Source: Phycisphaerales bacterium (GTDB lineage Bacteria; Planctomycetota; Phycisphaerae; Phycisphaerales; SM1A02). Taken from it: DNA of 43,950 nucleotides. This document shows, piece by piece, positions 1 to 40,436 of the stretch; position 1 is the stretch's first letter, and every line of letters starts with the position of its first letter. Location of the stretch: the NCBI GenBank assembly GCA_009691785.1, contig SIAM01000017.1, forward strand, positions 1-43,950, given 5' to 3'. The notes beneath the pieces are model-generated. The model did no database searches. It was not told where the DNA came from and was given only the letters and a program-made list of their open reading frames with translations. A program made the position numbers and the translations under genes.

Positions 1-2246
1 GGGCTGGAAGGTTTGCCATTTGGCTGCAGATATTCGCTCCAATTGCGATCATCAATGGTGCTTGGACGGCCGCCGCCAGGAATAAACGCGTCGGTGACAA
101 GACGATTGTGAAGCGTGTTGCGCAAACGGGTTCCATCTTGCTCATCCACTGAAACAATGTGTCCATGCGCGCCAAGTTTTTTCTTGTTGAATGCCGCGAT
201 GGGTTTGGCCTCATGGAACAAGCGAAGCAACTCGTCCATGTCCAAGCCTTCGGGGTCCTCGCCACTGCCGCTGCCGTCGGCAATGCCGGTGATGAGCGCG
301 TTGGCGCCGTAGTCGCGCTTAAGAATGCTGATCATGTTTCCCGCGACATCGCCATCGGGGCCACCGGTAATTTTCACCGTGAACTTTTGTTTGGTCGGAT
401 CAATGCCGCGCGCGCGCAGTGCGACCTCTAGGAACACATTCACGCCTTCGCTGGTCACGCCGTACACCTTGTGGTTGATTCCGGCGTTGGGCTTGCTGCT
501 CATGAACGCGGTTGGCAGCGAATACTTTCGTCGCTTGGCGCGCTCCACAATCCACTCTATGTGGTCAGGCGTAATGTTCTCGTCTGGCCCAAGATAAATA
601 AATTCCTCAATGCCAAGTTTGTCGATCAATTGGGTCTTGGTTCCAGGCTCCGGCGTGATGAGATCAAGAATGCAATCCACGAAACTTTTCACGCAGCGCG
701 TTGGGTCTGAAGGCGGTTCCAACAGCAAGGCGCATTTAGCGCCGCCCTCTGGAATATCCTTGTTTTTCTGCTGTTGCGCGCTGGCAAGCGCGTAGACCTC
801 GTCGTACAAACGGTCGTTCTCACGCGCGTGTTGCGCGGCGTCGCGCGGACGCACCAGGCGCAAACCACCGCGTGCGATTTCCTTAAAGCGAACATGGAAG
901 CCGTTGAAGCCGCGACCGCTGACAAAGAACACGCCAAATGGAAGATTGGGGCGCAACTCGTCCTGCAACAATTCTGGTTTCAGGCGCAGCGCAAAACCAA
1001 ATCGATTCTGCAAGTGGTAATTGGTGCGCAGCGTGGCTTGCACGGCGCGCAACATTCCCATGAGCACGGTGTTCCAACCTGGCGGCCTCGAAAATTCCAA
1101 CGATGTTTGCAACACTTTCACGCCCGACTCAAAGTCCGCGTCGCTCGTTGGTTTCTTTGGATCAAAGCGCGCCACAAGTAAATCCACAATGCGCAAAGAA
1201 ATTTCCATGGACTCCTCGGCGGCTTCAAGAATAATTTGGCTTTGAAACGCAAGGCGATCTTGATGCACCAACATTTGGTGAACAAGGTGGCACAAGCCCA
1301 TCACGGCTTCGGCGCGGTTCAGGTCAAGGCCGGGATGCCGATTAGCCAATTCCAAAATGTCGTAGTTGATCCACTTGGCGCGCGCGATGTCGTGGGAGAT
1401 TTGCTTCCAGATTGCGCTCTTGGGGTCAAGTTGTTTTCCATCGGCGGTCTGCACAACAAAGGCCAGGAAGGTGACTTGCCCGTGCGGCGCGTCCTTCACT
1501 TGGTCCAAATATGCCCGCAAAATAGAGATTTTTGCCCGCGCCAACACCATGGCGGCGCGCTCCAACATGGTGCGCGTGCGCGCGTTGGAGAACGCGATGG
1601 AGATGCGGCTTTGTGTTGGATTTGATTCCTGCTCCAGCTCGGTGCGCGCGCCGTCGCTGCCGCTGACTTCCTTAAAGAGCGCGGCGTGGCGACTCAGTCG
1701 CAGCGGCGTGAGCGTAAGCACATAGTCGGCGCTGGCGCCAGCGACAAATCCGCGGATTTCTTTTTCGCTCCAATCAAGTCCGTGCTCTGATGCCCACGCG
1801 ACAATGCAGTTTACCTTCGCCGCTTGCGTTGGATCCTTGGCATCAAAGGGCACGCGCTCGCCAAGTTCAAATGTGTCCACCACCAACGAGCCATCGAGCG
1901 TGGCATGAATGGTGGCGGCGCGAAGCGGTTCATTCATTGGCAGTTGCGCCACAATTTCCGACAGCACGCCCACGCGATTGCCTGGGCGGATCATGGTCCA
2001 CTCCTTGCCGTCGTCGCTGCGAATAGTCAAGTCAAGTTTTGTTCCACTGGCCTTTGCGGCAATGATGGCGCGCAAATGAGTTTGCACGCGCGCGGGCGAG
2101 GTGTCTTGAAAATACATCGGCGGCATTTGCGCCACGAACCATGGCACAATGCTTTCCGCGGTGGCCTTGAATTGTTGCGACAGCTCATTGATGAGCGCAT
2201 GGGTAGGCAAGGCGTTTGTGGCGGCTGGTGTTTCGGAAGAACGCAT
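1..2246 (-). CDS. gdhB: NAD-specific glutamate dehydrogenase (large bacterial class), 5' part only
   Basis: Oxidative deamination of glutamate to 2-oxoglutarate and ammonium with NAD+, in the cytoplasm. The frame is open from the ATG at 2246 to the left edge (748 codons) and has no stop, so the C-terminus is missing. Visible family motifs are GVFFVSGRGFNGFHVRF (near residue 430), NKDIPEGGAK (near 494), YLGPDENITPDHIEW (near 545) and TGGPDGDVAGN (near 630), the substrate and NAD regions of the large GDH family. The catalytic core begins near residue 430, much earlier than in the about 1600-residue GDH180 enzymes, so this is probably the shorter class of about 1000-1100 residues. Start: ATG preceded by GATAGT and a 6-base gap, with no Shine-Dalgarno. 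It is divergent from ribF. The family is certain; the exact subclass is inferred. Confidence 0.93.
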   Translation of the reverse strand, partial: MRSSETPAATNALPTHALINELSQQFKATAESIVPWFVAQMPPMYFQDTSPARVQTHLRAIIAAKASGTKLDLTIRSDDGKEWTMIRPGNRVGVLSEIVAQLPMNEPLRAATIHATLDGSLVVDTFELGERVPFDAKDPTQAAKVNCIVAWASEHGLDWSEKEIRGFVAGASADYVLTLTPLRLSRHAALFKEVSGSDGARTELEQESNPTQSRISIAFSNARTRTMLERAAMVLARAKISILRAYLDQVKDAPHGQVTFLAFVVQTADGKQLDPKSAIWKQISHDIARAKWINYDILELANRHPGLDLNRAEAVMGLCHLVHQMLVHQDRLAFQSQIILEAAEESMEISLRIVDLLVARFDPKKPTSDADFESGVKVLQTSLEFSRPPGWNTVLMGMLRAVQATLRTNYHLQNRFGFALRLKPELLQDELRPNLPFGVFFVSGRGFNGFHVRFKEIARGGLRLVRPRDAAQHARENDRLYDEVYALASAQQQKNKDIPEGGAKCALLLEPPSDPTRCVKSFVDCILDLITPEPGTKTQLIDKLGIEEFIYLGPDENITPDHIEWIVERAKRRKYSLPTAFMSSKPNAGINHKVYGVTSEGVNVFLEVALRARGIDPTKQKFTVKITGGPDGDVAGNMISILKRDYGANALITGIADGSGSGEDPEGLDMDELLRLFHEAKPIAAFNKKKLGAHGHIVSVDEQDGTRLRNTLHNRLVTDAFIPGGGRPSTIDDRNWSEYLQPNGKPSS

Positions 2247-2252
2247 TGGGAC

Positions 2253-2258
2253 ACTATC
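2253..2258 (-). promoter_or_regulatory. -10-like hexamer GATAGT, 6 bases before the gdh start
   Basis: On the minus strand GATAGT ends 6 bases before the ATG at 2246, a spacing that would put the transcript start at or next to the A of ATG. There is no Shine-Dalgarno and no convincing -35. It is one of a recurrent set in this window. Confidence 0.45.
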
Positions 2259-2312
2259 CCCGCTTTGGTGCCGCCGCTCAAGCGGTTTATGCCCACAAAT
2301 TGCCTATTTTTT

Positions 2313-2318
2313 TATCTT
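2313..2318 (+). promoter_or_regulatory. -10-like hexamer TATCTT, 8 bases before the ribF GTG
   Basis: TATCTT lies 8 bases upstream of the GTG at 2327 with no Shine-Dalgarno between them. It supports that GTG as a leaderless start rather than the upstream in-frame TTG at 2216, which would overlap the divergent gdh start. Confidence 0.35.
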
Positions 2319-2326
2319 CTTTGGAT

Positions 2327-3268
2327 GTGGGCTCTAAGTTGGTTACGCTGTTGCGCTTGCGTTGCATCACCATTGGCAATTTTGATGGCGTTCATGTGGG
2401 TCACCAAGCCTTGCTTGAGCGTGCTCGCGTTCTTGCGGGCAGCGGCGGCCAAGTTGTAGCGGTGACATTTGATCCGCATCCCGCCATGTTGCTCAAGCCG
2501 GAGTTGGCGCCGCCCACCGTGCAAACTCTTCAAGAGCGCCGTGAATGCTTGGTGAAATACGGCGCCGACCAAGTGCATGTGATCAACACCACCAAAGAAT
2601 TGTTGGCCATGAGCGCCGAGCAATTCATGGCGTGGTTGCGCGCGCAGATTGCCTTTGATTGCATTGTTGAAGGTCCCGATTTTCATTTTGGTAAAGATCG
2701 TGCGGGTGATATCAATACGCTGCGCGCAATTGGTTTGAAAAATGATTTCCCAGTTGACCAAGTTGCGTCGGTTGAAGTTGCCCTAAGCGACGCCTCGCGC
2801 GCGGTGGCCAGCAGTTCGCTGCTGCGTTGGCTTTTACAACATGGCCGCGTGCATGATGTGGCCGCGGTGCTAGGGCGCGCATATCAATTGACGGGTGTGG
2901 TGCAGAAGGGCGATCAACGCGGCCGCACTTTGGGTTGGCCCACTGCAAATATTGCAACTGGCGCGCGGGTGCTTCCAAGCGACGGTATTTACGCGGGTCT
3001 TGCCACGCTGCCTACGGGCGCGCGCAAACGCGCCGCGATCAGCATTGGCACCAAGCCAACATTTGGCTCACATGCCCGCACAGTTGAGGCTTTTTTGCTG
3101 GATCACAAGGCCCCGCTAGATGACTATGGCTGGACGCTCACGCTTGAATTTTCGCGCTGGTTGCGCGGGCAAACGCGTTTTGATGGCGTGCAAGCGTTGC
3201 TGGAGCAAATGAACCTAGACACGCAACGAACTCGCCAAGAAATTGCACAAGAGGTAGTGTTGACATGA
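2327..3268 (+). CDS. ribF: Bifunctional riboflavin kinase / FAD synthetase
   Basis: Phosphorylates riboflavin to FMN and adenylylates FMN to FAD in the cytoplasm. The N-terminal nucleotidyltransferase domain shows GNFDGVHVGH (residues 17-26 from the chosen start) and later VEGPDFHFGKDRAGD. The C-terminal riboflavin kinase domain shows GRTLGWPTAN (near 199) and the DGIYAG segment. The chosen GTG start gives 313 residues, the usual RibF length. The frame can be opened to a TTG at 2216, but that adds an unconserved stretch and overlaps the divergent gdh start. The stop overlaps the next gene's ATG (ATGA at 3265-3268), so the two are probably translationally coupled. The function is secure; the start is likely but not proven. 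Confidence 0.92.
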   Translation: MGSKLVTLLRLRCITIGNFDGVHVGHQALLERARVLAGSGGQVVAVTFDPHPAMLLKPELAPPTVQTLQERRECLVKYGADQVHVINTTKELLAMSAEQFMAWLRAQIAFDCIVEGPDFHFGKDRAGDINTLRAIGLKNDFPVDQVASVEVALSDASRAVASSSLLRWLLQHGRVHDVAAVLGRAYQLTGVVQKGDQRGRTLGWPTANIATGARVLPSDGIYAGLATLPTGARKRAAISIGTKPTFGSHARTVEAFLLDHKAPLDDYGWTLTLEFSRWLRGQTRFDGVQALLEQMNLDTQRTRQEIAQEVVLT

Positions 3269-4317
3269 CACAAGTGACCGCGAGCTATTCCACAACATCA
3301 ACACCACGGCACATTGCCGATCGATTGGTCAACGCCAAGCGCGTTTTAATTACTTCGCATGACAGGCCGGACGGAGACGCCATGGGTTCGGTGTTGGCGT
3401 TGGCGCGCGCGCTTCGTCAGCGCGGACGCTTTGTTGATATTTGGCTCGCGGGTGCGTTTGATCCAGTGTTGCAATGTTTGTTTGCAAATGAACAGCCAGG
3501 CCACGCGCCAGAGAAGTTGCCCACCGCGGAATATGAAGCTGTGGCGGTGCTTGACACTGGTTCTTGGATACAACTGGAACACCTGGGTCCATGGCTGAAA
3601 GAGCGCCGTGAAAAAGTTGTGGTCGTTGATCATCATCGCAGTGGCGACACGGATTTTGCGGATCGCATTGTGGACACGCGTTGCGCCAGTTGCACGCAGG
3701 CATTGGTGCCAATCATTGAAGCGCTTGGCGTGAAGTTTGACATGCCAGGAACTGGTGGTTCTGGATCAATCGCAGAGGCGCTCTTTGCCGGCTTGGCCAC
3801 CGACACCGGTTGGTTTCGCTTCTCAAGCGCGGATGCCGCGGTATTCACATTGGCCTCGCGCTTGCTCAGCGCGGGCGTGGAAAAAGATCGTTTATACAGG
3901 CAATTAGAGGAAAATTCGCGGCCGCAGAGGCTTGGATTGTTGGGCCGCGCGCTCAGCAATATTCGTTGGCTTGCCAACAATCGAGCCGCCATAATGCAAC
4001 TTCTGCCGGAAGATTTTGTCACGGCTTCGGGTAGCCCCGAAGATTTGGCCGGCGTGGTGAACGCGCCCATGCAAGTGGGCAGCACCGAGTGCAGTCTGTT
4101 GCTTTCACAGACAGAAGTTGGAATTGTGAAGTTAAGTTTCCGCAGCAAGCCACCTCTTCATGTAGGCGGCACATTTGTAGATGTCAATCGCATGGCGAGC
4201 GAGTTTGGCGGCGGCGGCCATGTGCACGCGGCGGGCGCGCGCGTAAAAGGCGAAATGTCGGTGGTGGCCGCGCAAGTGGCAAAGGTCATTGAGCGCACAA
4301 TTGCGGAACTTGGTTAA
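3265..4317 (+). CDS. nrnA: DHH/DHHA1 phosphoesterase, NrnA-like
   Basis: Member of the DHH family; NrnA proteins degrade short oligoribonucleotides and/or pAp, and this one probably acts in RNA end turnover in the cytoplasm. Motif I is HDRPDGDAMGS (from H32), motif II is the Asp of VAVLDTGSW, the signature VVVDHHRSGD is near residue 121, and a fourth metal motif is ATDTGWFRF. The DHHA1 substrate-binding domain ends with GGGGHVHAAGA near residue 316. At 350 residues it is close to the family norm. It starts inside the ribF stop (4-base overlap); the same ribF-next-to-nrnA order is common because both follow rbfA/truB in many bacteria. Those partners are not here. Nano-RNase versus pAp phosphatase activity cannot be decided from sequence alone. 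Confidence 0.88.
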   Translation: MTQVTASYSTTSTPRHIADRLVNAKRVLITSHDRPDGDAMGSVLALARALRQRGRFVDIWLAGAFDPVLQCLFANEQPGHAPEKLPTAEYEAVAVLDTGSWIQLEHLGPWLKERREKVVVVDHHRSGDTDFADRIVDTRCASCTQALVPIIEALGVKFDMPGTGGSGSIAEALFAGLATDTGWFRFSSADAAVFTLASRLLSAGVEKDRLYRQLEENSRPQRLGLLGRALSNIRWLANNRAAIMQLLPEDFVTASGSPEDLAGVVNAPMQVGSTECSLLLSQTEVGIVKLSFRSKPPLHVGGTFVDVNRMASEFGGGGHVHAAGARVKGEMSVVAAQVAKVIERTIAELG

Positions 4318-4407
4318 TGTCGCTTCATTTGCAAGCCGCTTTGTAAGCAACAGAATTCGTGTTTGTAATGCGCGCGAAAAATGCTGCGCATACATGTAGG
4401 CGCTGAA

Positions 4408-4815: not shown

Positions 4816-4918
4816 TGCACTTTCAGATTGGCGTGAATTTTATAAATGTATTGCGGAGGAAGTTTAGGCGTGCGTGCTTGTGAATGTGTTTGGCACAAAT
4901 ACACCCATGCGCCCAATT

Positions 4919-7594: not shown

Positions 7595-7634
7595 CGCCCG
7601 CACGCGCCTGCGATCTTGCTTTGAAGAATCCAAA

Positions 7635-8970: not shown

Positions 8971-8976
8971 ATAGTA
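8971..8976 (-). promoter_or_regulatory. -10-like hexamer TACTAT upstream of pyrC
   Basis: TACTAT on the minus strand ends 10 bases before the ATG at 8960, implying a very short or absent leader. The same hexamer occurs before the ferredoxin gene and the cysteine-rich lipoprotein gene. Confidence 0.35.
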
Positions 8977-9749: not shown

Positions 9750-9755
9750 TAGACT
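9750..9755 (+). promoter_or_regulatory. -10-like hexamer TAGACT, 6 bases before the uvrC GTG
   Basis: TAGACT is followed by exactly 6 bases and then the GTG at 9762, with no Shine-Dalgarno. The spacing fits a leaderless transcript starting on the start codon. Confidence 0.5.
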
Positions 9756-11272: not shown

Positions 11273-11278
11273 TACTCT
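11273..11278 (+). promoter_or_regulatory. Possible -10 (TACTCT) and Shine-Dalgarno for the RNase D gene
   Basis: TACTCT at 11273-11278 is followed by AAGGAG at 11289-11294, 9 bases before the GTG at 11304. The strong Shine-Dalgarno decides the GTG start. The -10 is weak, and the gene may also be read through from uvrC. Confidence 0.35.
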
Positions 11279-11303
11279 TGTTTGACAGAAGGAGTCCTCA
11301 CTC

Positions 11304-12608: not shown

Positions 12609-12671
12609 ATGTAAATTGTTTAAGACTTCCACCTGTTTGATTTTTTTCACATCATTTGAGAGAATAAAACC

Positions 12672-13664
12672 ATGACACAACCCGCAGACCAACTTCGCCG
12701 CAATCTTCTTGCTTCTTTACCAGCTTTTTTGCTGGCGCCCGCGGTTTTGGCGCAGCAAGGTGGTCTCGTATCGCCCCAGACTGCGCATGTTCCATCGTCA
12801 GTCAAACGTGAAATTCCAATTCTGCCATTCGCGCTCGCCGGTGCGTGGAGCGACGACTTTGGCGGACGATCTATTTTAAAAATGACATTGGCACTTTCTG
12901 GTTCGATCACATTTGCGGGGCAGGCAACCGTGTATCAGGATGACGAACTTCGTCTTTTAAAATTACAAATTGGCGCCGCGATGGAATGCGTGGAAACGCT
13001 GGCCAGATCGAGTAGTTGCGGATTTCAATCTCTGTATCCAAAGCAGGCAGAGCCTTGGTTTGTGAAATTGTCGGTCGCTGTCAGCGCGCAGGGGAAAGCT
13101 CCAAGCGATAGGGGCATCATGGCTTGCAGCGGAATTTGGAGTCGGCCCAATGCCAGTGGCGCGTTTGATCCCGCATGGAACGACACAAAAGTTGTCGAGC
13201 ATATTTCCGCTATGATGATTGAATTTGGAGTGAGCGTGAAATTAATGGTCGATGCAAATTCGCGTCAGTGCGCCGATGCGTTGCAAGTGATCGCCAAAGC
13301 GTCGCCAGCCTTGGCGCAGAAAATTGGTCCCGCGTCCAACTGGGGCGCGGGCACTTCAATTGTTCTTGTTGGAACGGCCTCGCAAGATTCAACGCAAGGG
13401 CTGATATCCGCGGGGCGCACCTTGCAACGCGGTCCGTTGCAGGCGTTCGCCGAGGGCGTCAATTGTAATTCGTTTGTTTTGCCGCCCAAAATGCTGGAAG
13501 CGGCGGCCGTGACCAGCAAAGAAGCGGCGATGGCGGTGAGGACGTTGGTCAAGCTTTTTGACGAGGAAGCCAGCGAACCCATGGGCGTGTCGCGCATTGG
13601 AAAGTTGTTGGTTCCGGCGTTCAACTCCATGCCCGTGTGCTTGCCCATGATCACATTCGCTTGA
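12672..13664 (+). CDS. Exported protein with Tat-like signal peptide, function unknown
   Basis: A 330-residue protein that I do not recognise. The N-terminus LRRNLLASLPAFLLAPAVLAQ is a signal peptide with twin Arg, followed by a probable AxA-type cleavage site (VLA-QQ); it is compatible with Tat or Sec export. The mature part is a mixed alpha/beta composition with five Cys (in C-V-E-T, SSSCGF, MACSG, SRQCAD, GVNCNS) and no clear catalytic motif. No membrane segment follows, so the protein is probably periplasmic and soluble. It starts 63 bases after the RNase D gene on the same strand with no clear Shine-Dalgarno; GAGAAT ends 6 bases before the ATG. The next gene is also unrecognised. Confidence 0.75.
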   Translation: MTQPADQLRRNLLASLPAFLLAPAVLAQQGGLVSPQTAHVPSSVKREIPILPFALAGAWSDDFGGRSILKMTLALSGSITFAGQATVYQDDELRLLKLQIGAAMECVETLARSSSCGFQSLYPKQAEPWFVKLSVAVSAQGKAPSDRGIMACSGIWSRPNASGAFDPAWNDTKVVEHISAMMIEFGVSVKLMVDANSRQCADALQVIAKASPALAQKIGPASNWGAGTSIVLVGTASQDSTQGLISAGRTLQRGPLQAFAEGVNCNSFVLPPKMLEAAAVTSKEAAMAVRTLVKLFDEEASEPMGVSRIGKLLVPAFNSMPVCLPMITFA

Positions 13665-15652: not shown

Positions 15653-15658
15653 AGCCTA
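15653..15658 (-). promoter_or_regulatory. -10-like hexamer TAGGCT, 6 bases before the rlmN start
   Basis: TAGGCT ends exactly 6 bases before the ATG at 15646 on the minus strand, with no Shine-Dalgarno; it is part of the recurrent leaderless pattern. Confidence 0.45.
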
Positions 15659-15706: not shown

Positions 15707-15712
15707 TACTAT
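15707..15712 (+). promoter_or_regulatory. -10-like hexamer TACTAT, 8 bases before the ferredoxin start
   Basis: TACTAT lies 8 bases before the ATG at 15721, with no Shine-Dalgarno. It favours this ATG over the in-frame upstream start at 15625, which lies inside the divergent rlmN coding region. Confidence 0.45.
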
Positions 15713-18488: not shown

Positions 18489-19160
18489 TTAGCCAAGATT
18501 TTGCGAGGGTTTTTTTAATCTGTTTGGACTGGTGAAATGCAGCAACATCACCACACTCCACGCTGATATGGCAGCTAGGCAAATTCCAAGTGTTGCCTGC
18601 CATGTCAACGCGTTGGGACTCACTCCGCCTCCAAGAGTTTCACGCAAGACACCCAAGATCGGACCGTCTATCCAATGTGGGGGAGCAGCCCAATTCAAGT
18701 GCATGTTGAAATAAATAGCGATTGGTCCTAGCAACACGATTGCAAGAATGATCAGCATGGTGGAGACGCGCTCAAATGCCGAGCGGCTTCCAATGGTTTT
18801 CGCAAGGATTGCTCCGATGATGGCCGCCCAAGCGAACAGCAAAAGATCGATCAACCCCATTCGTGCCGCAGTCCAATTGGTTGCCAAGCGCAGTGGCCAC
18901 AGCACCACATGCAGCAACACCATAAGCGCCGTAAAGTCCACAAGTATTTGTCGAATTGGCGCGGGAGTGGGTGATTCGCTTAATCGAAGCATGGGCCAAG
19001 CAACGCACAAGCCAATGGCAATGGTTGCAAAGAACAAACGAATTCCTGGAAGATAACTATCAATGGATGGTTGAACAGGTGGACGAATTCCAATGCAAAG
19101 TGCCCACGCCGCAAAAATCCAAATGGTGCTTAGGAAGACAAGTCCACGAGGCAGAATCAT
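18489..19160 (-). CDS. Polytopic membrane protein, function unknown
   Basis: A 223-residue protein with about six hydrophobic segments (residues near 8-25, 42-58, 72-90, 103-122, 132-152 and 188-208) and few charged residues; the last stretch is a basic tail (SPNRLKKPSQ). I recognise no family or catalytic motif. It lies between the ftsQ-like gene and greA on the same strand, so it belongs to the mur-ftsQ-greA-cls run and may have an envelope role. The start at 19160 has TAGTCT ending 6 bases upstream, so it probably also has its own promoter. Confidence 0.75.
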   Translation of the reverse strand: MILPRGLVFLSTIWIFAAWALCIGIRPPVQPSIDSYLPGIRLFFATIAIGLCVAWPMLRLSESPTPAPIRQILVDFTALMVLLHVVLWPLRLATNWTAARMGLIDLLLFAWAAIIGAILAKTIGSRSAFERVSTMLIILAIVLLGPIAIYFNMHLNWAAPPHWIDGPILGVLRETLGGGVSPNALTWQATLGICLAAISAWSVVMLLHFTSPNRLKKPSQNLG

Positions 19161-19166: not shown

Positions 19167-19172
19167 AGACTA
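19167..19172 (-). promoter_or_regulatory. -10-like hexamer TAGTCT, 6 bases before the membrane-protein start
   Basis: TAGTCT on the minus strand ends exactly 6 bases before the ATG at 19160, with no Shine-Dalgarno. The identical hexamer at the same distance precedes trpF. Confidence 0.45.
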
Positions 19173-22051: not shown

Positions 22052-23556
22052 TTTCCCAGGAATATATTCGCGGCTCGATAGACAGGTCCAGCGCCCATGG
22101 TCACAACAACATCGCCTCCTTGGGCAATCTCATTCAAGCGCGCGGCGCCCGCTTCAATGGTGCCAACGCATTCCACTGTGCCACCATGCTTGCGGATTCG
22201 GTCAGCGACATCTTGGCTTGAAACCAGCGCGCGCTCACTCTGCGCGTCGCGAACAAAGTGAATGTCCGTCAACAGCACATGGTCGGCGGCGCTAAAGCAA
22301 GCGCCAAAATCTTCCAGCAACAGGCGCGTTCGACTGTGTTGGTGCGGTTGGAACAAACAGATCAATCGCTTGGGATTTGTTGCATTTTTCAAGGCTTCCA
22401 GCGTTACACGCACCTCCGTTGGATGGTGCCCATAGTCGTCGTATACGCGGATGTTTTGCGCGCCAATATTTTTCGCGCCAACAAATTCCAAGCGACGATC
22501 AACTCCAGCGAAAGAAGTCAACGCCTCTTGCACGCTGTCGCTATCGGCGCCCAACTTCAGAGACATCACTCCCGCGCCCGCTCCATTGAGCACATTGTGC
22601 GCGCCAAACAATCGCGGTTGCCATCGCAAAATTTCTTTGTGTTTGTGATGCACGCGCGCCAGACCGTTGGCCGCCATCTGCACCACATAATCAGCGGCGG
22701 GGTTCCAGCCAAATGTTTCAATTGCAGCGGACACGTCTCGCGTCACGCGTTCGCGTTGCGCGCCCTCATGCGCGATCAACAAGTATCCAAGATCAGTGGC
22801 GGGTGGCAAGCGCCGAGCGAACACATTGAATGATTCAAGAATCTCATCAAGCGACTTGTAGCAATCCAAATGATCGCTCTCCACATTGGTGATGATGGCC
22901 GTGGTGGGGTGCAAATTGTGAAACGAGCGGTCAAACTCGCATGATTCGGTGATCAGAAATCCTGGCTTGTGGCAGTATGGGCCCTTAAAAAGCGTTGCCG
23001 CGCCGGCGCGCGCGCTTCCACCAAGCGATTCACATGTGGCGCCCGCAATAAACCCTGGATCAAATCCAGCGTGCAATAAGCACCAGGTAAGCATGCATGT
23101 GGTTGTGCTTTTGCCGTGGGTTCCAGCAACGCACACTGCGGTGTATCCACCTTGCAACAGTCCAAGAGCCTGCGCGTAACTGCGTACAGGAATATTTTTC
23201 TTTGCTGCCGCGACCAGTTGCGGATGATCTGATTTCGCTGCGGCTGTGGCGATCAACAGATCGCACTGCGCTGGAATTTCCATCGCCTCACCAACGGAAA
23301 TATCAAAGCCTTCCACCTGCAACGCTGTCACCGCGGGGCTGGCATTGCTATCGCCGCCGCTCACAACGGCGCCGCGTTTGTGCAGCAATCGCGCGAGTCC
23401 GCTCACGCCAGTTCCGCCGGCACCAACAAGCCAAATCCTTCGGCCTTGCAGCCCACGTGCATTTGAAAACCACTCGCTCAGCGGATCGTTCTTCACGTTG
23501 ATCATCGTAGGAACTTTCCCGAATACATCGTGCATAAATTGTGTGCTGGTGGACAT
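22048..23556 (-). CDS. murC: UDP-N-acetylmuramate--L-alanine ligase
   Basis: ATP-dependent addition of L-Ala to UDP-MurNAc, first of the Mur ligases. It shows the N-terminal Rossmann glycine loop WLVGAGGTGVSGLAR, the ATP loop AGTHGKSTTT (Gly145-Ser150), the ESCEFDRSF and NVESDHLDCY segments, the C-terminal YDDYGHHPTEVRVTLEA and FQPHQHSRTR. The 502 residues are normal. Start ATG at 23556 has no clear Shine-Dalgarno; the ATG at residue 8 is an alternative. It is divergent from the sigma-54 activator (101 bases between). Confidence 0.96.
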   Translation of the reverse strand: MSTSTQFMHDVFGKVPTMINVKNDPLSEWFSNARGLQGRRIWLVGAGGTGVSGLARLLHKRGAVVSGGDSNASPAVTALQVEGFDISVGEAMEIPAQCDLLIATAAAKSDHPQLVAAAKKNIPVRSYAQALGLLQGGYTAVCVAGTHGKSTTTCMLTWCLLHAGFDPGFIAGATCESLGGSARAGAATLFKGPYCHKPGFLITESCEFDRSFHNLHPTTAIITNVESDHLDCYKSLDEILESFNVFARRLPPATDLGYLLIAHEGAQRERVTRDVSAAIETFGWNPAADYVVQMAANGLARVHHKHKEILRWQPRLFGAHNVLNGAGAGVMSLKLGADSDSVQEALTSFAGVDRRLEFVGAKNIGAQNIRVYDDYGHHPTEVRVTLEALKNATNPKRLICLFQPHQHSRTRLLLEDFGACFSAADHVLLTDIHFVRDAQSERALVSSQDVADRIRKHGGTVECVGTIEAGAARLNEIAQGGDVVVTMGAGPVYRAANIFLGK

Positions 23557-23645: not shown

Positions 23646-23651
23646 TACAAT
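23646..23651 (+). promoter_or_regulatory. -10 hexamer TACAAT, 6 bases before the activator start
   Basis: TACAAT (5 of 6 to TATAAT) is followed by exactly 6 bases and the ATG at 23658, with no Shine-Dalgarno. It is the best single case of the leaderless arrangement in the window. Confidence 0.55.
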
Positions 23652-28916: not shown

Positions 28917-28922
28917 TACGCT
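28917..28922 (+). promoter_or_regulatory. -10-like hexamer TACGCT, 8 bases before the start at 28931
   Basis: TACGCT precedes the ATG at 28931 by 8 bases, with no Shine-Dalgarno. The whole divergent gap is only 35 bases. Confidence 0.3.
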
Positions 28923-28930: not shown

Positions 28931-29374
28931 ATGTATAGCCTGCGCTCATTTGTGTTGATTGGATCCTGTGCTTTCACAGGCACACTCGCGGGTTCCATGC
29001 TGCAACAACCGTCAACTCAAATTCCAGCCGTAAATAATCAATCATTTCAAAGCAAGCCCGCTGGGCATACTGCCATCCATCAGCCCACGCTGAATCAACC
29101 CGCAATTTCCACGGCGAACGCGGGCGTCACGGTGACCACGCCGTCCATGTCGCCTGTTCTGAAATGTCTTGTTCAAGCGCGCGATAAAAAAAAATCGCTG
29201 GCGGATCGCGAGGAGGCTTTGTTCAACGCGCAAAAAGAAATCGCCGCGTTGCCACCGGAGCAACAGTGGGGCTATGTCCAGCTTATCAACGCCACGCGCC
29301 AGCGACTTGTTGTCGATGCTTTTTTATTCAATAGCGGGCAAGTTCAAAACAACATTTCCACGAAGACCAAGTAG
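28931..29374 (+). CDS. Small exported protein, function unknown
   Basis: A 147-residue protein, not recognised. MYSLRSFVLIGSCAFTGTLAGSM is a signal peptide or N-terminal anchor. The middle is rich in Gln, Pro, Thr and Ser (low complexity); the C-terminal half (PVLKCLVQARDKKKSLADREEALFNAQKEIAALPPEQQWGY region) looks helical and charged. It is divergent from the SurA-like gene and overlaps the convergent glycosyltransferase gene by 51 bases. The reading frame is clean, but the gene has no recognised relatives, so it is less certain than its neighbours. Confidence 0.55.
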   Translation: MYSLRSFVLIGSCAFTGTLAGSMLQQPSTQIPAVNNQSFQSKPAGHTAIHQPTLNQPAISTANAGVTVTTPSMSPVLKCLVQARDKKKSLADREEALFNAQKEIAALPPEQQWGYVQLINATRQRLVVDAFLFNSGQVQNNISTKTK

Positions 29375-31426
29375 TATTTTTCCACCGCGTAGTTGCGCCA
29401 AGTGTGGAAGCGACTTTGACAATTCCTTCAATTGATCCAAGTTGATCTTTGGCGAAAGCCATCCGCTGCGTTGCCAACGCTCAAGCATTGGAACATCAAT
29501 CAAGATCGCATCGAAATTTTGTGATAGCAGGGCGGCTGTTTCAGTTGTCGACAGCCCATGGCAACTTTCAATCGCATTCGTGTCCCACACGCTTGACCAT
29601 GTCAGTGGTGCGTTGGGATGAATCCAAAAAGGCGTGCTCCAACCAACGCTCAGCACGCGCCACTCTGGTCGCCAATGATTGATGACCAATTCCGCGGTTG
29701 CATTTTTCGCCGCCGCTGCGCGCAGGCTCGCGTCGCTGCATCGCAGATCGCACCAGTCGTCATTCCCTTGCAAATAGCCATTTTCCCCTATGAAATAGGC
29801 GGCTTGTGGAGTATCCGTTGCCAAATTCCACGCCGGCAAAACCGCCCACGCGCACAGCAGCAGCGACAAAGGATTTCGCTTGGGCGCGCCCACTGCGGAA
29901 GCATTCACTGACAGGGCGCCGCCAAAAACGCTGGCGGCGGCAAGCCCGAACGCCAGCGAAAGTGGAATGGCAAGTGGAATAAGAAATCGACTTTGCAAGT
30001 GTGTCGCAAACATCCAGCCAATAACAATCAAGGCGCTACTCAATGCCAAAGCGGCGGCCACATGTCTTGTAGTGCGGAGCATGGACAGCAACGCAACAGA
30101 GCCCACGCCTATCCACGGAAGGGGTCCCCAAAACCATTTCCATGGGTTGCCCGCGGTTGGATTTTCTCCAAGGCCAAAAACAAAAAGTTGATTCCACAAC
30201 GCAAGCCCGCGTTGCATCATGGTCGCGTCGCTGGCATGCGCCTGATTCCAACGCATGCCTTGTTCGCCGCTCCACCAACCGACTCCCATTAGGTTGGTGA
30301 CCAACGGAAAGAAGGGCGTCCCGGTGTAATACCAATTGCGCGCAAGCCACGGAGTCAATCCAATAGCAAGGGCGAACGCACCGCACGCGATTGACTTCCA
30401 ATTCTTCCATGCACAATCGACCCGCAGCGCGAACCACGCCACGATCGCCGGCACAACCAAAATTAACGAACTTGCTTTGCTTCCAATCAACACTGCAATC
30501 AACGCGCCCAATATGAAGCCACCCCATTGAAACGATATTCCCTGGCGCGCAAAAACATTCAAAACACAGGCAAATGCAAGCACAATTCCCGATTCGCTGT
30601 ACGCCAACGAACCCGCCACAATCAACCATGGAGTGGCCAGCGTGGCGCACAGCGCGCACAAACGAGCAATATGCGAATTTATTCCCAACCCACTTGCAAG
30701 CAACGCCGCGGCATCCGCCAGCACAAACGCCGCCACCAGCAACATGCTGGCATGTAGCAGTTGGCACGCCACGGCGCCATCGCGCGCGTCGCTTGACAAA
30801 CTCATCACATGAAGAAATCCGCCTTCCACAAAATTTGGCATGCCTGAATACGCCAGAAATTCCAGCGGGCGAATTGCGCCGGCCGCCATCCATTCCTTGG
30901 GGGCTTGCAAGTGATATTCAAGCGCGTCGTATCCACAAAATTCCGTGCTCCAAACAACTCCAGGCGAGATACTGGCCGCAATCAACAGCGCCGCAATCGC
31001 TGGAAGCGCGGGCCACCACCAAAGTGATGATGCTTTGTCTTGTGTTTGTAATTTCCACGCGCGCACAACAAATCGCAGCGTCATGATCCATCCTGGGACA
31101 AACACCCCAAGCGCAACCGCGCCACGCAGCGCGCTGAACAATCCCAGCGAACCAAGCCATTGATCAATGATCAATTGCATTGCAATGCCAAAAGCAAACG
31201 CCAGCGCGCAGCCATCTGGCCCGCGCCCAAAAACTTTTTCCTTGGCGAATACACCCAAACCAAACGCGCTCAGCAACCAAGCGGCGCACTGCCAACCGCT
31301 CAATATCCACACGCTCAATAATGCAAAGCCGCAAATCCAGCCGCCCAGGAAACATCCCAGCACAACAGCGGCCAAACCCGCCACGATTGCGTTGCGTGCA
31401 AAAGAAATCCATTGCGGGGGTTGCAT
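29324..31426 (-). CDS. GT-C-type membrane glycosyltransferase (PMT/ArnT-like)
   Basis: Likely transfers sugars from a lipid carrier on the outer face of the inner membrane. Roughly 12 or more hydrophobic segments, with the short loop after the first ones carrying FCGYDALEYHLQAPKEWM near residue 165, whose Asp and Glu fit the acidic catalytic pair of GT-C enzymes. A soluble C-terminal part follows (from about 560) and ends LRGNVVLNLPAIE. 700 residues. Start: the ATG at 31426 is preferred over 31435 because GATAAT (5 of 6) ends 7 bases before it. The donor and acceptor cannot be told. It is divergent from fliW. Confidence 0.72.
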   Translation of the reverse strand: MQPPQWISFARNAIVAGLAAVVLGCFLGGWICGFALLSVWILSGWQCAAWLLSAFGLGVFAKEKVFGRGPDGCALAFAFGIAMQLIIDQWLGSLGLFSALRGAVALGVFVPGWIMTLRFVVRAWKLQTQDKASSLWWWPALPAIAALLIAASISPGVVWSTEFCGYDALEYHLQAPKEWMAAGAIRPLEFLAYSGMPNFVEGGFLHVMSLSSDARDGAVACQLLHASMLLVAAFVLADAAALLASGLGINSHIARLCALCATLATPWLIVAGSLAYSESGIVLAFACVLNVFARQGISFQWGGFILGALIAVLIGSKASSLILVVPAIVAWFALRVDCAWKNWKSIACGAFALAIGLTPWLARNWYYTGTPFFPLVTNLMGVGWWSGEQGMRWNQAHASDATMMQRGLALWNQLFVFGLGENPTAGNPWKWFWGPLPWIGVGSVALLSMLRTTRHVAAALALSSALIVIGWMFATHLQSRFLIPLAIPLSLAFGLAAASVFGGALSVNASAVGAPKRNPLSLLLCAWAVLPAWNLATDTPQAAYFIGENGYLQGNDDWCDLRCSDASLRAAAAKNATAELVINHWRPEWRVLSVGWSTPFWIHPNAPLTWSSVWDTNAIESCHGLSTTETAALLSQNFDAILIDVPMLERWQRSGWLSPKINLDQLKELSKSLPHLAQLRGGKILLGLRGNVVLNLPAIE

Positions 31427-31433: not shown

Positions 31434-31439
31434 ATTATC
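31434..31439 (-). promoter_or_regulatory. -10 hexamer GATAAT, 7 bases before the glycosyltransferase start
   Basis: GATAAT on the minus strand is followed by 7 bases and the ATG at 31426. It would overlap the alternative ATG at 31435, which it therefore argues against. Confidence 0.45.
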
Positions 31440-33072: not shown

Positions 33073-33103
33073 ATGTGCTCGCCGCTTTCGTTGAGGGTCG
33101 GCA

Positions 33104-33131
33104 AGTCTAACGAAATCGGCAGTTTGGTCAA
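33104..33131 (-). promoter_or_regulatory. Promoter of rpmI-rplT
   Basis: On the minus strand, -35 TTGACC (33126-33131), a 16-base spacer and -10 TAGACT (33104-33109), leaving a leader of about 25 bases. The leader could hold the L20 control site, but I see no clear structure. Confidence 0.5.
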
Positions 33132-33190
33132 GCCAAAAGTCATAGAAACATGAAAATACCTTTAAAATAGGCATTTAAAATTTTTGATTT

Positions 33191-34785: not shown

Positions 34786-34915
34786 TGGAATGACTCCGTG
34801 ATTGTCGGCAAATGGATGCAGGGAATCGTGAGGAAACGCAGTCATACACTTGCTACGATGCGCCAAGTTTTCTTGTTTGCAAGGATGATTGAAATTTTAG
34901 GAGTCTCGAAGAATT

Positions 34916-36049: not shown

Positions 36050-36149
36050 TGCGGTGCTGAGCTTGAATGTTGGCGCGCTGATAGAACGACGAATGTTTTT
36101 GTTCGCGCACAAAACACAATCAACATTTAAGTTGCGATGAGTGTGTCAA

Positions 36150-36878
36150 TTACAGTTGGTCAAATGTCGTGACTGACGCGCTTGGAAAGCTGTCAGCCAC
36201 TTTCGATTGCGCACCGCGCGCCGCCTCTATGAAGTCGCGCACTTTTGTGAAGTCCTTCACGCCGCGCGAACTTTCCACGCCGCTGCTCACATCAACCGCC
36301 CAAGGTTGCGTTTGCGAAATGGCTTTGGCAACCTGATCAGGCGTAAGTCCGCCGGCAAGAATAAGCGGTAAGCGGTTGGCCCAAGTCTGAGTTGGACGGC
36401 ACCAGTTCCAGTCATCACCCGCGCCAGCGTTGGGAGCATCTATCAAGAGCGCGCTGATGAGTTCATGGGGACAGTGTTGCAATGTGTTTGCCTCTTCAAT
36501 TGAACAACCAAAGATGCGCTTACGGTTGGGTCCGCCGATTGCTTCATAGACCTGAATGGTCCCCGGCCAATGTTGCAATTGCGCGTTTGTCACATCCGAC
36601 CAACTGCGCATGACTAGTACGGGTGTCGCTCTGATTTGGAAAGCCTTGCCACTCACGCCCCCAGTTGGATTGGGCATGGTCTTTTGCGCATGAATGTGGG
36701 ACAATATGTGGTTGGCAATTTCAAGGGCAGTTTGGAAGTCAACGTGCCGCGGCGAGGCCTGCGCAACTACAAATCCAATCGCATCCGCGCCAAGTTCGGC
36801 GGCTCGTATGGCGTCATCTAGAGTTCGAAGCCCGCAAATTTTCACCAAAGTTTTTAATTTGCCGCTTCGAATTTCCAT
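36150..36878 (-). CDS. trpF: Phosphoribosylanthranilate isomerase
   Basis: Third step of tryptophan synthesis. TIM barrel with LVKICGLRTLDDA (catalytic Cys14), the GADAIGFV strand, DAPNAGAG, LILAGGLTPDQV, and AVDVSSGVES followed by GVKDFTKV (phosphate end). The 242 residues are longer than usual, with an insertion (about 60-100) and a C-terminal tail. Start: the ATG at 36878 has TAGTCT ending 6 bases upstream. No other trp gene is nearby. It is divergent from citrate synthase by 42 bases. Confidence 0.92.
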   Translation of the reverse strand: MEIRSGKLKTLVKICGLRTLDDAIRAAELGADAIGFVVAQASPRHVDFQTALEIANHILSHIHAQKTMPNPTGGVSGKAFQIRATPVLVMRSWSDVTNAQLQHWPGTIQVYEAIGGPNRKRIFGCSIEEANTLQHCPHELISALLIDAPNAGAGDDWNWCRPTQTWANRLPLILAGGLTPDQVAKAISQTQPWAVDVSSGVESSRGVKDFTKVRDFIEAARGAQSKVADSFPSASVTTFDQL

Positions 36879-36883
36879 GCCAA

Positions 36884-36890
36884 TAGACTA
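36884..36890. promoter_or_regulatory. Symmetric -10 between trpF and citrate synthase
   Basis: TAGACTA reads TAGACT on the plus strand (31 bases before the citrate synthase ATG) and TAGTCT on the minus strand (6 bases before the trpF ATG). One element could serve both directions: leaderless for trpF, leadered for citrate synthase. Confidence 0.4.
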
Positions 36891-36920
36891 CGATCTTCCA
36901 TCAATCTTGAGAGACCCAAC

Positions 36921-38081
36921 ATGAGTATCGCAACACCATCAACTTCGGCAGCACCCATATTTGACAAAGGCCTTGGACAGACCGTCGCGGCGGAAACGCA
37001 GATGTCGTTTATTGACGGCGGTCGAGGCGTTCTTGAATATGTCGGAATTGAAATTGACGCGCTTGCGCGCAACAGCACATTTGAAGAGACGGTGTTCTTG
37101 TTGTGGAACCGTCGCTTGCCAACCCAATCCGAGTTGAACACATTTTGCGATCAGCTTCGCGCCGAGTACGCGCTGCCGCCAATCTTGGTGAATCTCATTC
37201 GTGAAATGCCGCGCGACGCTGGACCAATGCATGTCTTGCGCACGCTTGTCAGCGCGCTTTCTTTGTTTGATAGCGAAGTCGATGACGGCAGCGTTGAAGC
37301 CAACAACCGCAAGGCCATTCGCCTGCTCGCCAAGACGCCAACTATTATCGCGGGCTTTGATCGACATAGAAAAGGCAAGCCAATTGTGGACGCCGATGCG
37401 TCGTTGACTATGGCGCAAAATTTCTTGTACATGCTCAATGCCGCCAAACCCACGGCGTCCATGGCAAAAGCGCTTGATGTCTGCTTGATTTTGCACGCGG
37501 ATCACGGCTTGAATGCCAGCACATTCGCGGCGCGCGTGACCATTTCAACGCTCAGCGACATGTATTCCGCCATGGTCACCGCCATCGGCACGCTCAAAGG
37601 CCCGCTGCATGGCGGAGCCAATGAGGAAGTGATGATCATGCTGAATGAAATTGGAACCATTGAGAATGTGGACGCCTACATCGCGGAAAAACTGCGCAAG
37701 CGCGACCGCATCATGGGCTTTGGTCACCGCGTGTACAAGGCCATTGATCCGCGCGCGACGTATTTAAAAACATTCTCCAAGCAAGTTGCCGCCGACACCG
37801 GCAATTTAAACTTGTTCGAAATGAGCCGCCGCATAGAGGAAATCATGGCCAAGGAAGTTGCCGCCAAGGGCATCTATCCCAATGTGGATTTTTATTCAGC
37901 CACCACATACCACTCCATTGGCATAGATCTGGATTTGTTCACGTGCATGTTCGCCATGAGCCGCATTGCGGGTTGGGCTGGCCATTGCATTGAGCAACTT
38001 GATGGCAACCGATTGATTCGGCCAAACGCCGCGTACATTGGTCCGCATCAGCAGGTGTATGTGGCTATTGATCAGCGTTGA
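36921..38081 (+). CDS. gltA: Citrate synthase
   Basis: Condenses oxaloacetate and acetyl-CoA to citrate. Catalytic residues are visible: His230 (GPLHGGANE), His269 (GFGHRVYK) and Asp323 (NVDFYS); an additional conserved LHADHG is at 191-196. The 386 residues fit the short, dimer-type citrate synthases (also methylcitrate synthases), without the NADH-binding extension of the long type. ATG has GAGAG upstream. 2-Methylcitrate synthase activity cannot be excluded, but no prp genes are nearby. Confidence 0.93.
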   Translation: MSIATPSTSAAPIFDKGLGQTVAAETQMSFIDGGRGVLEYVGIEIDALARNSTFEETVFLLWNRRLPTQSELNTFCDQLRAEYALPPILVNLIREMPRDAGPMHVLRTLVSALSLFDSEVDDGSVEANNRKAIRLLAKTPTIIAGFDRHRKGKPIVDADASLTMAQNFLYMLNAAKPTASMAKALDVCLILHADHGLNASTFAARVTISTLSDMYSAMVTAIGTLKGPLHGGANEEVMIMLNEIGTIENVDAYIAEKLRKRDRIMGFGHRVYKAIDPRATYLKTFSKQVAADTGNLNLFEMSRRIEEIMAKEVAAKGIYPNVDFYSATTYHSIGIDLDLFTCMFAMSRIAGWAGHCIEQLDGNRLIRPNAAYIGPHQQVYVAIDQR

Positions 38082-38106
38082 TTGTTGGCGCGCAGGCTTT
38101 TCGCCA

Positions 38107-38838
38107 TCAGACTGAAATAACTTCGCCTTCTTGCAAGCAAGCAATAGTTGTCGACTTTGGATCAAAATCATCCATCATGTGCATCAATCGCATTTTGGAG
38201 CGGATTTTTTCGGGCAACGCGTTCAGCAACCAAACCGGCGTGTGCGTTGGCGCAGGACTTGTTTCGTGAATGATCAAGTCCGAGTCTTTGGCAAGCCAAT
38301 CAATCAAGGAAGGATCAAACGGAGTGTCCGAACTCCATGCAAGCAACTTGCCATCGGCCTTGAACTTCAGCGCGCTGGTTGGAATGGGATGTTGCGTTCC
38401 ACGACAAGACACTGTTATTCCGCAGATTAAATTTTCGCGCTCGGGATGAAGAAAGCGAATCTCGAAATAGTCGGCAAGTTTGGCGGCGCCTGACTGATCC
38501 ATTGCGGGCGCAAGGCGTTCCCACAGGCGATCCGCAACCGGTTTCCACATATAAAGTTTGGGTAATGCAGCGCCGGTTTCGCGGTGGTGCAGCCACCGCA
38601 AAAAACCAAGGCTTTCTAGTCCGTTGCAATGATCGCCATGCAAGTGCGTGATAATCAAATCGGTTATCTCAAGTGGATCAACCTTCCATCCAGATTTTTC
38701 ACCCGCTTTTCGCAAGGCCATGGGCAAAGAATCGGGGCAATCGATCATAATTTTGCCAGTTGGACCTTTGATTATGGCTGAGCAGCCAAAGCGCGCGGAA
38801 GAAAATATGTTGCCTGTACCGATCATCAACAATTGCAT
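38107..38838 (-). CDS. Metallo-beta-lactamase-fold hydrolase, RNase Z-like
   Basis: A 243-residue protein of the MBL fold. It has the metal motif THLHGDH (His65, His67, Asp69, His70), a CRGTQHPIP region with a further His, LLAWSSDTPFD with the metal-bridging Asp, and HETSPAP toward the end. The order fits the RNase Z/ElaC and MBL-fold 'beta-CASP-less' enzymes, but the exosite arm of true RNase Z is not evident, so the substrate is unknown. Start: ATG at 38838 has TAGAGT 6 bases upstream. It is convergent with citrate synthase. Confidence 0.8.
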   Translation of the reverse strand: MQLLMIGTGNIFSSARFGCSAIIKGPTGKIMIDCPDSLPMALRKAGEKSGWKVDPLEITDLIITHLHGDHCNGLESLGFLRWLHHRETGAALPKLYMWKPVADRLWERLAPAMDQSGAAKLADYFEIRFLHPERENLICGITVSCRGTQHPIPTSALKFKADGKLLAWSSDTPFDPSLIDWLAKDSDLIIHETSPAPTHTPVWLLNALPEKIRSKMRLMHMMDDFDPKSTTIACLQEGEVISV

Positions 38839-38844
38839 ATGGAA

Positions 38845-38850
38845 ACTCTA
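38845..38850 (-). promoter_or_regulatory. -10-like hexamer TAGAGT, 6 bases before the MBL hydrolase start
   Basis: TAGAGT on the minus strand ends exactly 6 bases before the ATG at 38838, with no Shine-Dalgarno. Confidence 0.45.
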
Positions 38851-38939
38851 GCACAATCAGATTGCATACAGACCGAGTTCTATATAAAAAAAATTCCAAT
38901 GCAATGTTGCAAGTGGGATCTAATTATTGCCGCCGCCGC

Positions 38940-38945
38940 TAGTAT
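38940..38945 (+). promoter_or_regulatory. -10-like hexamer TAGTAT, 9 bases before the barrel-protein start
   Basis: TAGTAT precedes the ATG at 38955 by 9 bases, with no Shine-Dalgarno. The 116-base divergent gap holds nothing else that I can name. Confidence 0.3.
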
Positions 38946-38954
38946 TGAAATGCA

Positions 38955-40436
38955 ATGGTTAAGGGAATTACAATTCTCATCATTGGTGGCATGTTGTGCG
39001 TGACATCATATGCCACGGCGCAAAATATTAATGTCCTGGCCAATAATGTTCAAAGGCAACTGAACTCGGAAGACGCGCAATATCGCCAAGATTATTTCAG
39101 GGAAACCCCAATCTCTGAGCGCTTACTTTTGGACGCGGGCGGAACATTTCGCTACGCCTACAACATGATCCAAAATTCGCAAAGTCAAAGCCAATATTTG
39201 ACCACGCCCGATGTACGTTTGTTTCTGCGCGCGGAGCTGGACGGAGGCATCCGGTTCTTTGGCCGTCTACGTTTTTTATACAACGAGTGGGACACCAACG
39301 GTAGTCGTGATTTGGCGCCGGATGCAAAGGAGCAAGGGTGGCAAAATCCAATTGGTGAAATTTACTGGGCCGAATTTGATTTAGCGGGCTTTACAAAAAG
39401 TCAAAATGGTTCCTTGCCTCCCGAGTTTAATCTGGTCATCAAAGGCGGGCGCAACTACCTGATTTGGGGTCAAGGATTGGTGTTGAGCAATTACATGTAC
39501 GCGGTGAAAGCCGAATTGACCGTTGGCGACTTGATGGTGGAGGGAATATTTGCGCAGACCGCTGGGCAGGACACCGTTGACTGGGACACATCGCGCCCTG
39601 GATATGACACTGATACTTCACGGGTTTATTCAGGAATGAAATTAAATTGGAACGGAATCCCAGGGCAGAAGCCCTATGTGTACGCCCTCTGGCAAGAGGA
39701 TCAGAATGGTGGACAGCAAAACATAATTGGAACAGTGCCAACAACATTTAACTATAACAACGGCTACGCAGGCTTCGGAAGCACTGGAAGTTTGGGCGCG
39801 GATTTGGTGTATCGCACCGAATTCGCGTATGAATTTGGCTTAACCTTGAGCGATTCCTTGGATCCAAACAGTGGCTCTCTTTCCCAACCACAACAGGAGA
39901 CAAGGATTAGCGCCGAGGCTGGCTTGGCGGGTCTGACCTATCTACTGCGTAACGAAGTCGACACGCGAGTGGATCTTTCCGTTTTAGTTGGTAGCGGTGA
40001 CAAAAATCGATTGGATAGCGGCACAACATTTGGTGGTATTGCTCCCAACCACACAGACCACTCATTTAATTCGTTGGGCTACATCAACACGGGGTTCGCT
40101 TTGGCGCCGGATCCCGCGAATTTACTTTGTCCGTCAGCGGGAATCAGCACGGATTTATTGCCTGATCCTTCTTCATGGGCACGCGATTTGCGTTTGGGCA
40201 TAACTGGTTTTCTGTTCATGAAAGTCGACAACCAAGCGCCCATCAATATTCTTACACGACCCGGCGGTTCAAATTTAATTGGAGGCGAAGTAGACGCCAC
40301 GCTGGATTGGCGCATTACCAGCGACATTAATTTCAATATGCGCTACGGTATTTTTATGCCCAACAGCAGCGTGTTTTTCGAAAATCAAGGTGCAAATAGG
40401 CAATTTTTCTACGTGGGGATGACCTATGCGTTTTAG
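38955..40436 (+). CDS. Outer-membrane beta-barrel protein, export-porin-like
   Basis: A 493-residue protein. The signal peptide MVKGITILIIGGMLCVTSYATAQ is followed by a mature protein dominated by alternating aromatic/polar strands (LRFLYNEWDTNG, GKGGRNYLIWGQGLVLSNYMYAV, SGMKLNWNGIPG, LVYRTEFAYEFG, WRITSDINFNMRYGIF). It ends VGMTYAF, with the terminal Phe that the BAM machine recognises. It resembles the alginate-export/porin group in strand pattern only; the transported molecule is unknown. The next two genes follow on the same strand: a lipoprotein overlapping it by 11 bases and the FecR-domain protein. Confidence 0.78.
   Translation: MVKGITILIIGGMLCVTSYATAQNINVLANNVQRQLNSEDAQYRQDYFRETPISERLLLDAGGTFRYAYNMIQNSQSQSQYLTTPDVRLFLRAELDGGIRFFGRLRFLYNEWDTNGSRDLAPDAKEQGWQNPIGEIYWAEFDLAGFTKSQNGSLPPEFNLVIKGGRNYLIWGQGLVLSNYMYAVKAELTVGDLMVEGIFAQTAGQDTVDWDTSRPGYDTDTSRVYSGMKLNWNGIPGQKPYVYALWQEDQNGGQQNIIGTVPTTFNYNNGYAGFGSTGSLGADLVYRTEFAYEFGLTLSDSLDPNSGSLSQPQQETRISAEAGLAGLTYLLRNEVDTRVDLSVLVGSGDKNRLDSGTTFGGIAPNHTDHSFNSLGYINTGFALAPDPANLLCPSAGISTDLLPDPSSWARDLRLGITGFLFMKVDNQAPINILTRPGGSNLIGGEVDATLDWRITSDINFNMRYGIFMPNSSVFFENQGANRQFFYVGMTYAF

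Follow-up and report, generated by a model that had tools for sequence, protein, structure and literature searches.

A short promoter-like hexamer of the form TANNNT recurs immediately before start codons in a stretch of 43,950 nucleotides (nt) from Phycisphaerales bacterium, an uncultured planctomycete (contig SIAM01000017.1 of assembly GCA_009691785.1), hereafter called the window, which is one contig of a source genome of 2.19 Mb in 77 contigs. These hexamers are very probably sigma-70 -10 elements that set the start of transcription on the start codon, so that the corresponding mRNAs are predicted to be leaderless; with a promoter box abutting the start codon, the ribosome would be given no leader to land on. 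Sequence counts further suggest that the leaderless pattern runs through the whole planctomycete order to which the window belongs. If this is true, annotation often misplaces the gene starts of this order, as would be the case for murC in the window, the position of the -10 element becomes usable as a signal for calling starts, and the patchy spread of the pattern within one phylum makes the gain and loss of leaderless expression testable by comparison.

Positional enrichment of the hexamer at gene starts

Throughout, distance is the number of nucleotides between the last base of the hexamer and the start codon. Genes were called on 772,569 bases, about 35% of the genome, from codon bias alone and blind to the upstream sequence, yielding 484 starts. 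At these starts TANNNT was found 45 times at distance 6, 18 times at 7, 9 times at 8, 15 times at 9 and 10 times at 10, compared with a background of about 4 occurrences per position further upstream, while only 0.3% of 4,226 internal in-frame ATGs carry it at distance 6. When 11,520 combinations of three-letter pattern and distance were scanned exhaustively, TANNNT at distance 6 ranked first, with a z of 19.4. A retrained second gene call gave 477 starts, 36 of them with TANNNT at distance 6. Additionally, a start-independent count, in which any ATG or GTG near the beginning of an open reading frame (ORF) of at least 150 codons was accepted, returned 74, 37, 18, 35 and 27 occurrences at distances 6, 7, 8, 9 and 10, respectively, against 13.3 per position. 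With any candidate start per gene allowed, the element stands at 6-8 in 122 of 477 genes, which exceeds the expected 42 by 17% of all genes, and 23 further genes carry it at 9-11.

Across the whole genome, 466 copies of TANNNT-N6-ATG were counted, against 259 of the frame-matched TANNNT-N15-ATG. A reversed-pattern control was not matched in composition and lay above the distance-15 count in many genomes, and distance 15 was taken as the control instead. The preliminary description of the window had proposed widespread leaderless mRNAs, a claim that a lack of distance-specific enrichment throughout the genome would have refuted; such enrichment is present in the blind-called starts, in the counts open to any start and in the genome-wide comparison. 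Its hand estimate that a chance occurrence should affect about one start in eighty was also about right, the measured rate being 0.3-0.8% per position.

A fixed distance could in principle be mimicked by start choice combined with codon phase, through in-frame TAG and TAA stops and periodicity, since the TA is in frame with the start at distance 6 and the frequency of TANNNT near all ATGs varies with distance modulo 3. This artefact is, however, so improbable as to be negligible, and it was rejected on the enrichment of hexamers that hold no stop and of the out-of-frame distance 7: TA[C/T]NNT alone occurs 18 times at distance 6 and 13 times at 7, against about 2. At position -12, TAC (18) comes close to TAG (22) in frequency, whereas TAA is found only 8 times, no more commonly than at -15 (8) or -6 (9). 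In this genome the count at the frame-matched distance 15 falls far below that at distance 6, and in families p34, p36 and p40, which belong to the same phylum, the distance-6 to distance-15 ratio is about 1.0.

Anatomy of the hexamer and its reading as a promoter

The form supported by the counts is TA[C/G]N[A/C]T, which describes 39 of the 62 elements at distance 6-8 and 25 of 113 background hexamers. A narrower over-representation of TAGNCT had been claimed earlier, and only a weak tendency of this kind is seen, with 5 of the 62 elements against 3 of the 113 background hexamers. The bases in front of the hexamer form a CGN signature, with C at -3 in 37% of cases (background 16%) and G at -2 in 53% (background 27%). 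The missing -35 boxes of the preliminary description were borne out: among 75 aligned elements, the best TTGACA match at a spacer of 16-18 was the same as in shuffled sequence.

Transfer RNAs are not translated, and the hexamer nevertheless precedes their genes: within the order, TANNNT occurs 4-15 nt upstream of 14 among 29 tRNA genes, for a total of 15 hits where counts taken farther upstream predict 5.2. The hexamer is therefore best read as the -10 element of the organism. Its position is also where a ribosome-binding site would be expected, and a 2017 survey in Nucleic Acids Research (NAR), in the part accessible to us, leaves leaderless mRNA and/or RPS1 open for Planctomycetes from a single species. 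TANNNT could accordingly be a translation signal, an A/T-containing ribosome-binding element of non-Shine-Dalgarno type as in Bacteroidetes, on mRNAs with ordinary leaders. This explanation is very unlikely, given that the hexamer also lies upstream of tRNA genes, that its flanks are C/G and not A/T-rich as in a Bacteroidetes-type site, that the spacer varies in length while the hexamer is kept, and that the signature is the same as that of mapped promoters of Mycobacterium tuberculosis.

Conservation of the element among relatives

In homologous loci the hexamers stay constant while spacer length and flanks vary. TACAAT at 23646-23651 (+ strand), 6 nt before ATG 23658 of a response-regulator activator, recurs at all 14 same-genus loci, 6 or 7 nt from the start. 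Similarly, TAGTCT at 36885-36890 (- strand), 6 nt before ATG 36878 of trpF, is present in every one of 12 same-genus loci, again with a spacing of 6 or 7 nt, at protein identities down to 36%. The TAGGCT element of rlmN (15653-15658, - strand; 6 nt before ATG 15646) is kept at distance 6 in seven of eight relatives, the eighth locus (L045) being without the gene start. On the opposite strand, TACTAT at 15707-15712 (+) lies 8 nt before ATG 15721 of a putative ferredoxin, and TANNNT occurs at 6-8 in all seven relatives with a match, out of eight searched.

The widest comparison was available for uvrC, in which TAGACT at 9750-9755 (+ strand) stands 6 nt before GTG 9762. TAGACT is found at distance 6 in the eight closest distinct genomes, and, up to order level, TANNNT lies 6-11 nt before a plausible start in 31 of the 36 rows listed, which amounts to 24 of 29 distinct genomes because seven rows repeat genomes present under other locus ids.

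The comparison of relatives also bears on the annotation of murC. TACGAT at 23504-23509 (- strand), a site absent from the preliminary description, lies 7 nt before GTG 23496, and of 14 same-genus loci 13 have TANNNT at distance 7, as TACGAT in 12 of those. This GTG, located 20 codons inside the ORF that begins at ATG 23556, is probably the true murC start.

A contrast is provided by rnd (GTG 11304), a leadered case, whose Shine-Dalgarno sequence GAAGGAG at 11288-11294 (+ strand) is retained in eight of eight relatives, with no TANNNT 5-11 nt before the start. A TACTCT is located at 11273-11278 (+), 25 nt before the rnd start and upstream of its GAAGGAG, and the ACTCTT part is kept in all eight relatives; it may be a -10 box of the same kind, giving a short leadered mRNA. 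Two further loci gave negative results: no element was found for citrate synthase in 12 of 12 relatives, and none of eight relatives had TANNNT at the aligned start of the protein at 12672, which has no Pfam match and is preceded in the window by GAGAAT (12660-12665, + strand; 6 nt before ATG 12672).

Extent across the phylum

TANNNT-N6-ATG and TANNNT-N15-ATG were counted in 393 genomes, 232 of which were tabulated by hand, and the resulting table describes a pattern but estimates no frequency, because families outside the class were picked after the counts had been seen. In the order of the window, z exceeds 3 in 73 of 77 genomes and the ratio is at least 1.5 in 66 of 77, the extreme being 321 against 14 in G205; the four members without z>3 are G446, G202, G360 and G444. 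Elsewhere in the class, z>3 was reached in 5 of 25 genomes, with ratios up to 1.44. Among the other tabulated families, median ratios of 2.0-4.2 were obtained for p52, p56, p50, p69, p62, p31 and p58, followed by 1.4 for p80 and 1.1 for p27, while p36, p34 and p40 stay at the level given above. Family p30 (f30) has a ratio of 1.0, and among its 32 tabulated genomes z>3 is confined to G208 and G361 of genus g147, in which distance 6 and distance 15 give 208 against 59 and 219 against 102. A separate gain or a misplaced genus are possible sources of this excess.

Leaderless transcription from CGN-TANNNT promoters without -35 boxes is likely to be a major mode of gene expression across the whole planctomycete order, to be shared by several further families of Planctomycetota, and to be absent from other large families. 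Such a patchy distribution would imply that the trait was gained or lost independently within a single phylum, and the one member examined in this respect keeps a canonical RpoD and anti-Shine-Dalgarno sequence.

Samples of 80 kb were inspected in individual relatives. All ten TANNNT-N6-ATG matches in G205 precede ORFs of at least 112 codons, as do 8 of 11 in G014, 2 of 3 in G046 and 3 of 8 in G054, and G024 has no match; long ORFs are, however, common by chance at a GC (guanine plus cytosine) content of 74%, a caveat that applies to this ORF-length check. A blind gene call in G205 returned no gene with the element at 6-8 despite the ten matches in the same 80 kb, and blind gene calling in high-GC relatives misses true starts. 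G202 and G360, both of order family f6 and genus g103, have no significant distance-6 excess genome-wide; in the G202 sample the count is conspicuous at distance 7 (6 against 1.25), and the preferred spacing in these two genomes may be shifted.

Shine-Dalgarno sequences and the proposed leaderless route

The 3' end of the 16S rRNA, GGATCACCTCCTTT, has the usual form with an intact anti-Shine-Dalgarno sequence, and RpoD residues 380-620 align without a break to residues 371-611 of E. coli RpoD, so that Shine-Dalgarno initiation and -10 recognition of the ordinary kind both look available. Shine-Dalgarno initiation does not appear to be the sole mode: a core is found upstream of 111 of the 484 blind-called starts, well short of a majority, and at 7% of internal ATGs. 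Cores are particularly rare where the hexamer is present, as the preliminary description had observed: a core accompanies TANNNT at 6-10 in 3 of 83 starts, compared with 101 of the 394 starts that lack the hexamer there (odds ratio 0.11, p 8e-7), a rarity that is partly mechanical because the hexamer takes up the same bases. The accompanying division in that description, with Shine-Dalgarno sequences at genes inside operons or with long leaders and none visible at genes that begin a transcription unit, reflects a real but partial contrast: a core stands before 36 of the 114 same-strand genes that are close-packed, and before 72 of the 355 that lead.

The proposed mechanism begins with promoters of the approximate -10 consensus CGN-TA[C/G]N[A/C]T, which we infer to be read by the housekeeping sigma-70 factor without a -35 partner. 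RNA polymerase would start on the start codon or within 1-2 bases of it, because the last T of the hexamer sits 6-8 nt before ATG or GTG. The mRNAs of about one fifth of the genes would consequently have neither a 5' leader nor a Shine-Dalgarno sequence, and their translation would follow the leaderless route, with the 5'-terminal start codon recognised together with initiator tRNA. Shine-Dalgarno cores are seen at other genes, including a third of the close-packed ones. This leaderless interpretation is supported by the conservation of the element, the rarity of Shine-Dalgarno sequences, the lack of a -35 partner and the use of the hexamer before tRNA genes.

In canonical -10 geometry, the main peak at distance 6 puts +1 on the start codon, which argues against a related explanation that overlaps and is compatible with the preferred one, namely that the promoters are real but a sizeable minority of genes carry leaders of about 3-5 nt and are not strictly leaderless. 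This variant is rather unlikely, although it draws on the enrichment of distances 9 and 10 in the start-independent count (35 and 27 against 13.3) and on uvrC spacers of 8-11 nt in several relatives.

Several results weigh against the leaderless reading, in addition to the mechanical component noted for the Shine-Dalgarno comparison. Some genes may have leaders of 3-4 nt, to judge from a second, smaller peak at distances 9-10; a Shine-Dalgarno core is absent in 21 of the 22 blind-called cases at these distances, and inspection of the 22 genes for non-canonical start codons revealed no clear pattern. The uvrC spacer reaches 11 nt in relatives, several lying at 8-11 nt, and uvrC is without the element in 5 of the 29 distinct genomes (L064, L067, L068, L078 and L079, of which L068 begins inside the gene). 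Unseeded motif discovery by expectation-maximization on all upstream regions reached diffuse A/T motifs such as ATTGNA and not TANNNT. The element had been described at genes that begin a transcription unit; TANNNT at 6-10 is found in 16 of 100 close-packed genes as well as in 62 of 362 leading genes, so that a restriction to unit-leading genes is not clear. In G024 and G051, the 80 kb sampled showed little or no excess. Finally, leaderless or near-leaderless genes are estimated at one fifth of all genes, a fraction that is only approximate because several blind-called starts, for example that of uvrC, are wrong.

The base immediately before the start codon was also considered. C at -1 is present at about half of the starts in every class of the source genome, at 52% of leaderless-like, 53% of Shine-Dalgarno and 45% of other starts; being equally common at leaderless-like and Shine-Dalgarno starts, it provides no initiator evidence and was dropped as such.

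Further elements in the window

All 11 hexamers listed in the preliminary description are present where they had been placed. Seven lie at exactly distance 6, as had been claimed (gdh, uvrC, rlmN, the protein at 19160, the activator, trpF and the MBL hydrolase), and the group at 7-8 was likewise confirmed, with the gene at 31426 at 7 and ribF, the ferredoxin and the protein at 28931 at 8. The form given for them, TANNNT or GATANT, holds as TANNNT for nine sites, and the sites of gdh and 31426 are NANNNT.

In addition to the conserved sites, GATAGT at 2253-2258 (- strand) is located 6 nt before ATG 2246 of a putative gdh of 748 codons that continues beyond the window, and TATCTT at 2313-2318 (+) 8 nt before GTG 2327 of ribF, which has Pfam matches to FAD synthetase and riboflavin kinase. 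TAGTCT at 19167-19172 (-) lies 6 nt before ATG 19160 of a putative membrane protein without a Pfam match, TACGCT at 28917-28922 (+) 8 nt before ATG 28931, and GATAAT at 31434-31439 (-) 7 nt before ATG 31426 of a putative glycosyltransferase, also without a Pfam match. TAGAGT at 38845-38850 (-) precedes ATG 38838 of a hydrolase with a Pfam MBL fold by 6 nt. Two sites are weaker owing to their distance: TACTAT at 8971-8976 (-), taken from the blind gene call, 10 nt before ATG 8960 of an amidohydrolase, and TAGTAT at 38940-38945 (+), 9 nt before ATG 38955. At the gathering threshold, Rfam gave zero matches in the window. A long ORF at 41302-43950 (+) continues beyond the window end.

Comparison with known leaderless systems

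Leaderless mRNAs are well documented from Actinobacteria, Deinococcus-Thermus and archaea. Of 953 genomes in the study of Zheng et al. (2011), 207 were listed as having leaderless genes, and Planctomycetes are not among the groups named in the accessible part of that paper (PMC3160421). The accessible text on GeneMarkS-2 (Lomsadze et al. 2018, cited in PMC9581028) gives leaderless transcription as predicted in 21.6% of bacterial species. As for the phylum itself, the suggestion of leaderless mRNA and/or RPS1 in the 2017 NAR survey comes from one planctomycete species, and a 2019 study, in the portion available, places Planctomycetes among phyla with intermediate Shine-Dalgarno use. A literature search combining leaderless with Planctomycetes, Planctomycetota, Phycisphaera or Rhodopirellula returned no report in the accessible parts of the sources, including PMC5397173, PMC10783764, PMC2784483, PMC6728339 and PMC10434106. 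With the mechanism known and no description found for the lineage, it is the extent in Planctomycetota, and not the mechanism, that appears to be new.

The element resembles the TA-like signal of Zheng et al., a TANNNT located some 12 bp ahead of the translation start and read as a -10 box, and the TAnnnT form is assigned there to high-GC groups, a form shared with the present genome (PMC3160421, accessible part). In M. tuberculosis, 22-26% of genes are leaderless according to the portion of Cortes et al. (2013) available, and the likeness extends to a TANNNT -10 element, no -35 motif, and [G/C][A/G]N, often CGN, before the hexamer (PMC3898074). In Deinococcus, the available text describes TANNNT about 6-7 bp before ORFs at nearly one third of genes, conserved among homologues, with a GGAG motif elsewhere (PMC12340547). 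Both systems differ from the present one in belonging to other phyla and in their evidence, transcription start sites having been mapped in M. tuberculosis (PMC3898074) and the Deinococcus elements experimentally validated (PMC12340547), whereas the planctomycete element is read from sequence. With Deinococcus it shares a -10 motif adjoining ORFs, a Shine-Dalgarno-type motif at other genes, and conservation among homologues (PMC12340547).

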